From contig NZ_FNCW01000003.1 of NCBI RefSeq assembly GCF_900099815.1, positions 243,756-307,755 of the forward strand: 64,000 bases of DNA, written 5' to 3'. This stretch comes from Psychroflexus sediminis. Its GTDB lineage: Bacteria > Bacteroidota > Bacteroidia > Flavobacteriales > Flavobacteriaceae. This document shows positions 54,339-59,384 of this stretch, in pieces (positions within the stretch are counted from its first letter, which is position 1; each line of letters starts with the position of its first letter). The translations under genes were made by a program, and so were the position numbers. Below the pieces are notes generated by a model, which searched no databases, was not told the origin of the DNA, and was given only the letters and a program-made list of their open reading frames with translations.

Positions 54339-54800
54339 ATGACCAATAACGACGTATTACGCAGACTCCGCTATACTTTTGAATATACCGATTCCAAAAT
54401 GATGTCCTTTTTTAAACTGGCAGGGGTAGAGGTCAGCAGAGCCGAGGTAAGCGACTGGCTTAAAAGCGATGACGACGAAGCCTTTGCAGAGCTGGACGAT
54501 AAAAAACTGGCAGCTTTCCTCAACGGGCTTATCATCGCTCACCGTGGAAAAAAAGAGGGTAAAACTCCAGAAAATGAAACCTTTTTGAATAACAATGATG
54601 TGCTCAAAAAACTCAAAATCGCCTACGAACTGAAATCCGAAGACCTAATTGAATTATTCCAACTGGCTGGCAAAAAAGTAAGCAAACACGAATTGAGCTC
54701 TTTTATGCGACGACCAACTCAGCCTCAATACAGAGAACTGATGGATCAGTACTTAAGAAATTTTCTCTATGGGCTTCAGTTGAAACAGAAAGCGAAGTAA
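54339..54800 (+). CDS. DUF1456 family protein (YehS-like)
   Basis: 153-residue cytosolic protein with two copies of a short helical repeat. The first copy starts MTNNDVLRRLRYTFEYTDSKM, the second NNDVLKKLKIAYELKSEDL at residue 87, each followed by a segment ending in a WLK or FMR turn and a helix LAAFLNGLIIAHRGKKEG or LRNFLYGLQLKQK. This is the pattern of E. coli YehS. The biochemical role is not known. It is convergent with the broken dinB gene. Confidence 0.88.
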   Translation: MTNNDVLRRLRYTFEYTDSKMMSFFKLAGVEVSRAEVSDWLKSDDDEAFAELDDKKLAAFLNGLIIAHRGKKEGKTPENETFLNNNDVLKKLKIAYELKSEDLIELFQLAGKKVSKHELSSFMRRPTQPQYRELMDQYLRNFLYGLQLKQKAK

Positions 54801-56976: not shown

Positions 56977-57864
56977 TTACCAGTCTATAAACGATATGCC
57001 AATACCTAAAGTGGTCTGCTTGTGATTATAATCAATTAACGTCTCTCCATAACCTGTAAAGGCCTGAACGTGCAGCCTGAGGTTGGATTTTACAGAGTAC
57101 ATATAATTGATTTCCAGACTTCCTCTATTGAGTTCAGAATCCAGATTGTTTCTTCCAATCACTTGAATGCTGTGTTTATCCAGGTTGTATAGCATTTCAG
57201 CCTCCATTCTTCCTACATAGTCACTGATGAGAGGATTATCATCTTTGTCTGAACTTTCCACCCTTATCCAGGGTTTGAGATAGAGTTGAAAGTTATCTTT
57301 CTCGAAAGCCACATGAAAAATAAGTCTGTTCCAGCTCCTTGATCTGGGTAAATCTCTACCGTTAGATTTGTGGTTGAACGCCAGTCCTGCCATCTTTAAA
57401 TCTATACCGAATACATTCAGATTGATAGGAAAATTGACAATGATTTCCGGTTCGTAATTCAATTCACGGAAAGGTCTGGAGATGGGGTCATTGTAAACCT
57501 GCCAGTTGGCAAGTTGAGTGTAAGCCAGCCAAATATCACCGTGCCCAAATAGAAAAGATTGAATCAATTTGGTTTTCAGGCTTAATTGAAACTTGGCTTC
57601 CACCTGATCATAATTTAAGGGCTCTTTAAAACTGTTTTGTGGATTATTACTTTGTGGAAGTACATTGGGATCATTCGACCATCTTACGGGTAATACATAA
57701 ATAGGTTTGTAAAATGTGAGCTTAAAGGTCCCGTTTTTATCATCTTCATCGAGTTCCCAGCGTTGAGACATCGTCTTTTTGATGATTTGATCATCACCGA
57801 AGACCGATTGTGCATAGGAATTCAATGTAAAAAACAGGAACAGAACTAAATATTCAATTTTCAT
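56977..57864 (-). CDS. pldA: Outer-membrane phospholipase A
   Basis: Outer-membrane beta-barrel phospholipase (OMPLA) that hydrolyses misplaced phospholipids in the outer leaflet. The catalytic motif FNHKSNGRDLPRSRSWNR contains the histidine and serine in the H-x-S-N-G arrangement, near residue 180; QVIGRNNLDSELNRGSLEINY near residue 250 is also conserved. The start at 57864 (MKIEYLVLFLFFTLNSYAQ) gives a clean signal peptide; a longer frame to 57906 adds 14 residues that spoil it. Activity would need calcium and dimerisation, as in E. coli. Confidence 0.88.
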   Translation of the reverse strand: MKIEYLVLFLFFTLNSYAQSVFGDDQIIKKTMSQRWELDEDDKNGTFKLTFYKPIYVLPVRWSNDPNVLPQSNNPQNSFKEPLNYDQVEAKFQLSLKTKLIQSFLFGHGDIWLAYTQLANWQVYNDPISRPFRELNYEPEIIVNFPINLNVFGIDLKMAGLAFNHKSNGRDLPRSRSWNRLIFHVAFEKDNFQLYLKPWIRVESSDKDDNPLISDYVGRMEAEMLYNLDKHSIQVIGRNNLDSELNRGSLEINYMYSVKSNLRLHVQAFTGYGETLIDYNHKQTTLGIGISFIDW

Positions 57865-57978
57865 GAAAAACAGATATGCTGCAAAAATAGAATCTGTAAA
57901 AGTCAATCGGACTCATTTAGGTATATTTCTTTAATAAATGTTTTTAAAACGAAATGGATTCACTATAAATGGACAATA

Positions 57979-58062
57979 ATTCGATTCTTAAGTCGAATAC
58001 TTGAAAATTCGATACATAGATCGAATTGTAAAAAATTTGATATATTAGTCGAATATTATACT
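57979..58062. repeat. Three tandem 28-bp repeats, six alternating half-sites every 14 bp
   Basis: Half-sites begin at 57979 (ATTCGA), 57993 (TCGAAT), 58007 (ATTCGA), 58021 (TCGAAT), 58035 (ATTTGA) and 58049 (TCGAAT): exactly 14 bp apart and alternating in orientation, so each 28-bp unit contains one inverted repeat with an 8-bp spacer. Only the fifth half-site has a change. Units share further bases (a T after the first arm, AG or GA before the second). The array ends 10 bases before the ATG of the SatD-like gene. A near-copy of AAnTGGACnATnAT stands on both sides (57967-57980 and 58063-58076). It looks like a cooperative operator. Confidence 0.85.
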
Positions 58063-58071
58063 AAGTGGACT

Positions 58072-58671
58072 ATGATAGCAATCATTACAGGAGATATTGT
58101 CAATTCAAAACAAAATAAGAGTTCCGACTGGCTGGAAACCTTAAAGCTTGCTTTAAATCGATACGGCGAACAACCAAAGGACTGGGAGATTTACCGAGGG
58201 GACAGCTTTCAGCTTAAAACGACAGTCGCCAAGAGTTTAAAGGCCTGTTTTTATATAAAAGCCTGTATCAAAGTACATAAATCTCTGGATGTCAGAATGG
58301 CTGTCGGAATAGGGGAGACCAAAGGTTCTTCGGGAAAAATAACAGAGGAACAGGGGGAGGCCTTTTACAGATCAGGGCAATGTTTCGAAACCCTGAAAGC
58401 AAGTCATCTGGCAGTAGAAACCGGAAATAAACAGGACAATGCTACTTTAAATTTAATGTTAGAACTTGGAGCTCTAACCTTTGACAGGTGGACAAGCGTA
58501 GATGCTGCAACGCTAAAAATAGCCCTGGAGTATCCGGCTTATACGCAAAAAGAAATTGCTGAAAAATTAAATAAAGCGGCAAGTACCGTAAGTTTCACAC
58601 TTCAAAAGACGGGGTATAAGGAAATTTTAAAATTGCTGGAGTATTATAAACACTTAAGCCTGAGCGCATGA
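58072..58671 (+). CDS. SatD-like regulator: cyclase-like domain plus helix-turn-helix
   Basis: 199-residue cytosolic protein resembling the SatD family. Residues 1-110 read IITGDIVNS (aspartate 8), IYRGDSFQL (aspartate 44), RMAVGIGETKG (75-85) and GEAFYRSGQCFETLK (95-109), the same order and spacing as metal and nucleotide motifs of class III nucleotide cyclases, though the usual transition-state asparagine and arginine are absent. Residues 152-182 (YTQKEIAEKLNKAASTVSFTL) form a helix-turn-helix. The stop overlaps the DUF3307 gene by 4 bp. The repeat array immediately upstream suggests self-regulation. Family name is by recall; the cyclase link is inference. Confidence 0.75.
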   Translation: MIAIITGDIVNSKQNKSSDWLETLKLALNRYGEQPKDWEIYRGDSFQLKTTVAKSLKACFYIKACIKVHKSLDVRMAVGIGETKGSSGKITEEQGEAFYRSGQCFETLKASHLAVETGNKQDNATLNLMLELGALTFDRWTSVDAATLKIALEYPAYTQKEIAEKLNKAASTVSFTLQKTGYKEILKLLEYYKHLSLSA

Positions 58672-59384
58672 CCACTCTACTTCTAAAGCTTTTACTCGCT
58701 CACTTTTTGGGTGATTTTGTATTTCAGCCCTACAAGTGGGTGAAGAGTAAAGAACGAAAAGCGGTGAAATCAAAATTCTTCTGGTTTCACATAGGGGTTC
58801 ATTTTTTGCTCATGTTTTTATTTACAGGTTTTGAAACAAGTTTTATTCCAGTGGTTATAGGTATTGGAATCAGTCATTTTGTAATTGATTTACTGAAAAT
58901 AAAGCTTCAAAACCGATGTTCGGAGATTCCTCTCTTTTTTGGAGATCAGGCTTTGCATCTGCTTGCTATACTAACTGCTGTCGGACTATACTTCACCTGG
59001 GACTGGTCAGACCTACTGCAGCTCCAGGACAAATGGCTGGTTCTCATTTTAGCTTTCGTGCTCCTCACCTCTGTCTCCGGAATGATGATGAAAGTCCTGC
59101 TCTCGAAATGGGATCTCAATCATTTTGAAGGGGAAGCCCTGGAGAAGGCCGGCTGGTATATAGGGGTTTTAGAGCGATTATTTATCTTCGGGTTTGTTTT
59201 TTCGGGGCATTGGGCCGGGATTGGTTTTTTGATTGCGGCTAAATCCATTTTTCGATTTAATGATCTGTCCAAATCAAAAGACAGGAAACTTACCGAATAT
59301 GTTCTTATCGGTACCTTATTGAGTTATGGTCTGGCCATGCTCATTGCATTCACCTGTCTTCAGTTGTGGTATTACGTTCAGTAA
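58668..59384 (+). CDS. DUF3307 membrane protein
   Basis: 238-residue integral membrane protein with about seven hydrophobic segments. Polar residues are spaced within or beside them: histidine 12, aspartate 16 and glutamine 20 (HFLGDFVFQ), histidines 41 and 45 (HIGVH), histidine 70 and aspartate 74 (SHFVID), and DQALH at 93-97. This pattern resembles membrane metal-dependent hydrolases, and a buried metal site is plausible. It overlaps the SatD-like regulator by 4 bp (ATGA). SatD-like and DUF3307 genes occur together in other bacteria as far as I recall, so they probably work as a pair. Substrate unknown. Confidence 0.8.
   Translation: MTTLLLKLLLAHFLGDFVFQPYKWVKSKERKAVKSKFFWFHIGVHFLLMFLFTGFETSFIPVVIGIGISHFVIDLLKIKLQNRCSEIPLFFGDQALHLLAILTAVGLYFTWDWSDLLQLQDKWLVLILAFVLLTSVSGMMMKVLLSKWDLNHFEGEALEKAGWYIGVLERLFIFGFVFSGHWAGIGFLIAAKSIFRFNDLSKSKDRKLTEYVLIGTLLSYGLAMLIAFTCLQLWYYVQ

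Follow-up and report, generated by a model that had tools for sequence, protein, structure and literature searches.

Autoregulation by cooperative dimers at tandem operators is known from lambda CI and from the C proteins of restriction-modification systems. These proteins usually occupy two or three dyads, with unequal spacing within and between the dyads, and are not known to have a cyclase-fold domain. In phage and restriction-modification autorepressors, the operator and the recognition helix diversify together. A different kind of array is bound by Omega/ParB of plasmid pSM19035, a plasmid partition protein. According to the available part of the report on it (PMC9499535), it has low affinity for a single repeat, and its 7-bp non-palindromic repeats, present in mixed orientations, form arrays of 7-10 contiguous heptads that overlap promoters, that of its own gene included. 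SatD of the Streptococcus sat operon shares its family name with PF16264 and is likened to it here by name; the available parts of PMC11323703 and PMC10326533 mention no operator, regulator role or DUF3307 link for it. In S. pyogenes, satD is reported to be accessory, being present in 178 of 249 genomes, and nevertheless to be essential in transposon screens (PMC11323703, available part). Such a pattern, dispensable in evolution but needed wherever the gene is there, would be expected of a gene that represses a harmful neighbour. Apart from that report, SatD and DUF3307 appear as labels in the literature searched, as far as the accessible text of these papers goes.

The satD locus described here is from Psychroflexus sediminis and lies in the window, the whole stretch of 64,000 nucleotides that was analysed (Table 1). 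Six half-sites precede the gene, starting at 57979, 57993, 58007, 58021, 58035 and 58049. They follow each other in exact 14-bp steps, with ATTCGA and TCGAAT alternating in orientation, and the sole one-base deviation is ATTTGA at 58035. Both starts and letters agree with what a sequence-only reading had described, and none of 1000 shuffles scores as high. That reading had placed the end of the array 10 bp before the ATG; the array spans 57979-58054 and its last half-site ends 17 bp ahead of the ATG (58054 versus 58072). It had also described a conserved 14-base flank on both sides, which turns out to be at chance level, matching at 11 of 14 positions and equalled by 188 of 1000 shuffles; by eye, the 14-base flanks are not kept upstream of satD in loci L005-L010.

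Table 1. Features of the satD locus, in window coordinates.
Feature	Position	Strand	Remarks
Dyad 1	57979-57998	.	ATTCGA-N8-TCGAAT
Dyad 2	58007-58026	.	ATTCGA-N8-TCGAAT; 28 bp past dyad 1
Dyad 3	58035-58054	.	ATTTGA-N8-TCGAAT; one-base variant, holds TTTG
TTTG, possible core of a -7 element	58036-58039	+	overlaps half-site; TA part absent; tentative, suggested by the family-wide pattern
satD	58072-58671	+	N-terminal cyclase/palm-fold domain, about 1-135; C-terminal HTH, recognition helix 170-179
DUF3307 membrane protein gene	58668-59384	+	4-bp overlap with satD (ATGA); PF11750, 89.6 bits (cut-off 23)

Arrays were scored by folding the sequence on reflection centres at half-period spacing (a dihedral lattice), with the period left free between 18 and 44. 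The 180 bp before the ATG of satD score 27.3 with period 28; the highest score among 1000 dinucleotide shuffles is 14.9. When 1064 overlapping segments covering the 64 kb are scored, the two on the array reach 26.5 and 26.1, and the runner-up reaches 14.2.

The satD product belongs to the SatD family PF16264 (32.4 bits, cut-off 29), with residues 2-185 aligned to positions 2-200 of the 211 of the model. Its closest named relatives are from Psychroflexus species, with 90% identity to that of P. aurantiacus. The AlphaFold (AF2) model has a pLDDT of 91.5 and places the recognition helix at residues 170-179. Fold searches with the predicted structure show that the N-terminal domain shares the fold of class III nucleotidyl cyclases, GGDEF domains and the Cas10 palm, with PDB entries 1ybu, 2qv6, 3ung and 4zve as fold relatives; unlike in these, the fold is joined to an HTH in SatD. 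A Pfam scan of five SatD proteins matched no cyclase family. Asp8 and Asp44 are invariant among the SatD proteins of alignment A1, and by motif similarity they may correspond to the metal-binding aspartates of cyclases. The N-terminal domain is probably a nucleotide sensor (or acts on a nucleotide). In Pfam, the HTH is weakly similar to sigma-70 region 4. Among the models of known anti-phage systems in PADLOC (2023 library), weak matches cover the HTH alone (E 0.0096 and 0.025) and, at E 0.1, there is no match for the DUF3307 protein; a defence role is still possible.

The gene after satD encodes a member of the DUF3307 family (PF11750). Among the matches listed, a co-oriented DUF3307-like frame lies downstream, in the flanking DNA retrieved, in 195 of 198 satD loci; the search used our own profile at E 1e-4, and misses L097, L098 and L107. 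The satD and DUF3307 genes are therefore a conserved pair, and probably an operon. The DUF3307 protein of the window (58668-59384) matches PHROG family 2470 ("moron, auxiliary metabolic gene and host takeover") with an E value of 4e-14, so relatives exist in phages, despite the absence of any match to it in a tblastn search of a phage collection. The same collection gave no match for two SatD queries, and two IMG/VR contigs contain a SatD relative. A DUF3307 protein is also mentioned in a jumbo phage in the available part of PMC8504454. The predicted model of the DUF3307 protein has a pLDDT of 75.8, and a fold search with it gave no meaningful PDB match. Elsewhere in the window, 54339-54800 encode a protein with a strong DUF1456 match (PF07308, 175 bits, in two stretches).

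The repeat is also found upstream of orthologues. Among the matches listed, 178 of 198 Bacteroidota satD loci fit best, with the period left free, at 28 or 29 bp, and 171 of these 178 also beat 25 shuffles. The first set contains 114 Bacteroidota loci (25 of 26 matches, 25 new loci, 4 of 10 loci and the best 60 of 72 further places; the partial L026 and L038 and five Psychroflexus loci apparently from genomes already included were left out). Here the period is 28 in 73 loci and 29 in 25, making 98 of 114, and 94 beat all 25 shuffles, 93 of them with one of these periods. The second set, from the family of the window itself, contains 84 loci (60 fetched places plus 24 new loci, from a list limited to the stronger matches); the period is 28 in 78 and 29 in 2. 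Of these 84, 80 score above all shuffles, and 78 of the 80 have one of these two periods. Controls taken from gene bodies, which are imperfect in being coding and less A+T-rich than upstream regions, have period 28 once and period 29 never in the first set, where 4 of 114 beat shuffles, and neither period in the second, where 6 of 84 do. The sets contain near-duplicate rows (L034-L036; L037 and L040; L044 and L045), and L149, with its start wrongly placed, is counted as a miss.

Outside Bacteroidota, a clear array precedes satD on a Vibrio lentus plasmid (30.6 versus 11.0 in shuffles), and two viral contigs have strong ones (31.4 versus 7.6 and 47.2 versus 6.9), the array scoring 47.2 lying more than 100 bp upstream of satD. 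The viral contig at L132 has a strong period-29 array of G+C-rich words of the CTGGCC/GGCCAG type, about 90-330 bp upstream of satD. Two near-identical Pseudoalteromonas plasmids have at most a weak array: scored past the upstream ATG, they reach 12.8 versus 8.9 and 11.8 versus 11.0, and when the scored stretch stops at this ATG, 5.3 and 6.8, below shuffles. The Salinivibrio loci were rejected as arrays, their period being 28 and their scores in the shuffle range (L217, 10.0 versus 11.7; L218, 9.2 versus 9.3). No array was found in the 180 bp scored on the Segatella plasmid (L127), nor in the 180 bp of seven loci of family f32 (L116, L117, L120-L122, L124 and L125), where the gene pair is present. 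The SatD proteins of the f32 group have an insertion directly before the recognition helix, and regulation of the gene pair may be rewired in this group.

Half-site words can be read in 166 loci, 94 of the first set and 72 of the second (among the matches listed). Read from the outside inward, most consist of TAT and a variable triplet (TATCGG, TATCTG, TATTAG, TATTAC, TATTCC, TATAAG, TATCGT); they vary by lineage, ATTCGA being the word of the window. Words of period-28 arrays were given the orientation that best resembles the outer TAT columns in arrays of period 29, so the conservation of TAT in period-28 arrays is partly by construction, while the inner triplet is free of this effect; some words look misregistered and were retained (e.g., L150, L156, L161 and L180). 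Upstream of satD in L021, dyads of TATTCC and then TGATA/TATCA-like ones stand side by side, and it seems as if one operator were replacing another.

Runs of half-sites number six in 92 of the 166 loci (among the matches listed), seven in 17 and eight in 28. Copy number is not satellite-like, with six to eight half-sites in 137 of 166 loci, the peak at six being due in part to the 84-bp scoring window, which favours this count. In period-29 arrays, the centres are of two kinds, one located between two bases and the other coinciding with a base. With a gap of 8 bp within the dyad and 9 bp between dyads, the outer TAT is in register in 20 of 23 of these loci (all except L025, L106 and L118), making the dyad look like a rigid unit, as expected of a bound dimer. 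The contact between neighbouring dimers seems to tolerate one base pair.

The reading we favour, to which we give a probability of roughly 0.7, is that the array is an operator lattice on which SatD would bind its own promoter as cooperating dimers, repressing the satD-DUF3307 unit until relieved by a nucleotide. SatD most likely controls its own two-gene unit through the lattice, because its relatives keep the 14-base spacing while the letters change with the DNA-reading helix of SatD. A SatD dimer would bind a 20-bp dyad (word, 8-bp gap, inverted word) through its C-terminal HTH. Adjacent dimers would be 28 or 29 bp apart, and at least three dyads would give cooperative occupancy. The lattice would overlie the promoter from which satD and the DUF3307 gene are transcribed together, some loci having the -7 box incorporated in a half-site, and bound SatD would block RNA polymerase. 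Nucleotide sensing (or processing) by the N-terminal domain would then free the operator, and more DUF3307 membrane protein would be made. Binding, cooperativity, repression rather than activation, the nucleotide ligand and the role of DUF3307 are what we infer from the locus and its relatives; the ligand and the function of the DUF3307 partner are guesses. Points against this reading are the f32 loci, which have the gene pair and no array, the lack of a complete -7 element in the window, and the correlations of regions other than the recognition helix given below.

Of 166 loci (among the matches listed), 86 have the Bacteroidota -7 element, whose consensus we take to be TAnnTTTG, within the final 70 bp, with 12.5 expected from shuffles. 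It lies directly outside a half-site on the strand of the gene in 42 of the 166 loci and on the opposite strand in 2; at that position of the lattice, the outer TA of the word supplies the TA of the element. The window contains no full TAnnTTTG within the last 70 bp before satD. By eye, TTTG is present in the start-proximal dyad of six of the eight ATTCGA-type loci, a tentative hint that the one deviating base in the array of the window reflects a compromise with promoter function. The intergenic region of the array is common to satD and a divergent phospholipase A1 gene (56980-57864; PF02253, 318 bits); by eye, a -7-like CAAAAATA is located directly upstream of the latter.

Because the lattice overlaps the promoter, the mode of action would be repression. 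We regard it as unlikely that SatD instead binds the array as an activator, or in both modes, recruiting polymerase from upstream dyads. Much of what is seen would also result from activation by SatD, many loci have dyads far ahead of the start codon, and the likeness of the HTH to sigma-70 region 4 would suit such a role, but the fusion of the -7 element to a half-site on the strand of the gene (42 loci versus 2) fits occlusion better. The essential but accessory nature of satD in S. pyogenes, as given in the available part of PMC11323703, fits a repressor of a harmful neighbour, and other roles too. Together with the gene pair (195 of 198 loci among the matches listed), it made a toxin-antitoxin module worth considering, in which DUF3307 would be a putative toxic partner.

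The identity of the binding protein was approached through covariation of the words with SatD, using 69 proteins of less than 80% identity for a column scan and Mantel tests, and 161 distinct proteins for a test on 80 pairs. In the column scan, which was unbiased and used the 69 dereplicated proteins, the first five places go to residues 172, 171 and 175, followed by residue 184 and some columns of the N-terminal domain, in permutations that ignore relatedness. Partial Mantel correlations with the triplet are 0.16 for the recognition helix (p=0.001), 0.03 for the N-terminal domain (p=0.24), 0.04 for the helices before the recognition helix (p=0.07) and 0.10 for the C-terminal tail (p=0.005). 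In the 80 phylogenetically independent pairs, the partial rho between four key residues and the word is 0.58 (p=0.0001). The 12-residue helix reaches 0.33 (p=0.002), the preceding helices do just as well (0.34, p=0.0013), non-word columns against the helix give 0.22 (p=0.024), and the distance between N-terminal domains weakly tracks the distance between words (partial 0.20, p=0.032). The key residues were picked on the first set, a choice from which a further test on 36 held-out independent pairs is free and the 80-pair test is not. The held-out pairs come from new genes, though of a family to which many loci of the first set also belong; in them, the four key residues reach a partial rho of 0.63 (p=0.0001), the 12-residue helix 0.50 (p=0.0013) and the preceding helices 0.11 (p=0.26).

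Individual helix codes go with individual words, in counts of related sequences rather than of events: SS..E with TATCGG in 15 of 16, SN..E with TATCTG in 10 of 16, GN..Q with TATTAG in 18 of 22, AA..R with TATTAC in 10 of 12 (the other two having TGTTAC), SA..Q with TATAAG or TATTAG in 13 of 15, and ST..F with ATTCGA in 8 of 8, all of one lineage. Prediction of the word from the nearest helix is a draw with prediction from the nearest N-terminal domain (25 versus 27 wins in 54 discordant cases), and the exact triplet is predicted in 16 and 11, respectively, of 72 second-set loci among the matches listed; the filter used here, training proteins of less than 70% N-domain identity, excluded the proteins with the closest helices in many rows, for example in most GN..Q rows. 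The sequence-only reading had suggested the HTH of the gene product itself as the binder of the array. The covariation of words with the recognition helix (0.63 in the 36 held-out pairs) argues for such binding by SatD and is the behaviour expected of an autorepressor, with the nearest-helix draw counting against it.

In the 2.97-Mb genome, exact ATTCGA-N8-TCGAAT occurs in two places, both in this array (one in a backwards control). With one mismatch there are 10 sites, 3 of them in the array, against 17 in the backwards control; since such sites are no commoner than in the control, the exact and one-mismatch scans give no sign of further targets across this genome. For TATCGG-N8-CCGATA, 12 of 13 exact sites in eight genomes are at satD, with 2 matches in the backwards control, and two of the eight genomes are without any exact site. 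The lone exact dyad away from satD in these genomes, at G137:C1:418038-418057, could be a second target.

That some other cellular regulator binds the array, its tie to the SatD helix reflecting shared ancestry alone, appears highly improbable. The covariation is correlational, and both the weak tracking of word distance by N-domain distance and the draw in nearest-neighbour prediction would be in keeping with shared ancestry; against this, the association of helix and word persists on independent pairs after control for N-domain distance, the held-out association is specific to the recognition helix, and exact sites are nearly confined to satD. Least credible of all is a neutral tandem satellite, or an RNA structure in the leader, for although near-identical linkers in some arrays (e.g., L103 and L106) look as after recent duplication, in most of the listed arrays the half-sites are kept and the linkers differ (by eye), the words vary together with the helix at a spacing that stays constant throughout the phylum and outside it, and roughly half of the loci have a promoter-like element within the array or following it.

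A bolder version of the favoured reading, autorepression by SatD, is possible, if rather doubtful. The satD-DUF3307 pair would be a widespread module of two genes, so far undescribed and in some cases located on a plasmid or a viral contig, in which a nucleotide-sensing repressor of cyclase/palm fold coats a phased lattice of at least three dyads as an oligomer, restraining a potentially harmful or protective membrane effector. Operator word and helix would have changed again and again, following a residue-to-base code that can be read; this would be expected if cross-regulation between modules of the same population has to be avoided.

The SatD family, in the literature searched an acid-tolerance label and an essential accessory gene, gains a likely role as a family of transcription regulators whose sensor would be of cyclase fold, and for each of which a candidate operator is at hand. 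With their matched helices and words, the 161 pairs are a natural data set for the DNA-recognition code of the SatD HTH and lead to a single-residue prediction, namely that a change of residue 172 from Ser to Asn shifts TATCGG to TATCTG. The near-equal spacing within and between dyads predicts an oligomer geometry. The link to DUF3307 bears on the puzzle of satD as an essential accessory gene and makes it testable.

Autorepression on an operator array is of a known kind; the role of the SatD family, the geometry of the lattice and the helix-to-word code appear undescribed in the literature searched. Omega/ParB is like SatD a small DNA-binding protein (in the case of SatD, predicted) with a repeat array at its own promoter (PMC9499535, available part). 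An Omega-type heptad array was considered for satD and rejected, given the predicted HTH and the 14-bp half-site steps. Omega/ParB has a ribbon-helix-helix fold, as described in the accessible text, whereas SatD has a predicted HTH, half-sites that alternate strictly at 14-bp steps, a domain of cyclase fold and a neighbouring gene for a membrane protein. The heptad array of Omega/ParB, as far as that text goes, is the closest operator found in the literature searched, and differs from the satD array in the fold of the protein and in geometry. With lambda CI and the C proteins, the satD array has the proposed autoregulation in common, but the near-equal spacing within and between dyads and the cyclase-fold domain set SatD apart from what is usual in them.
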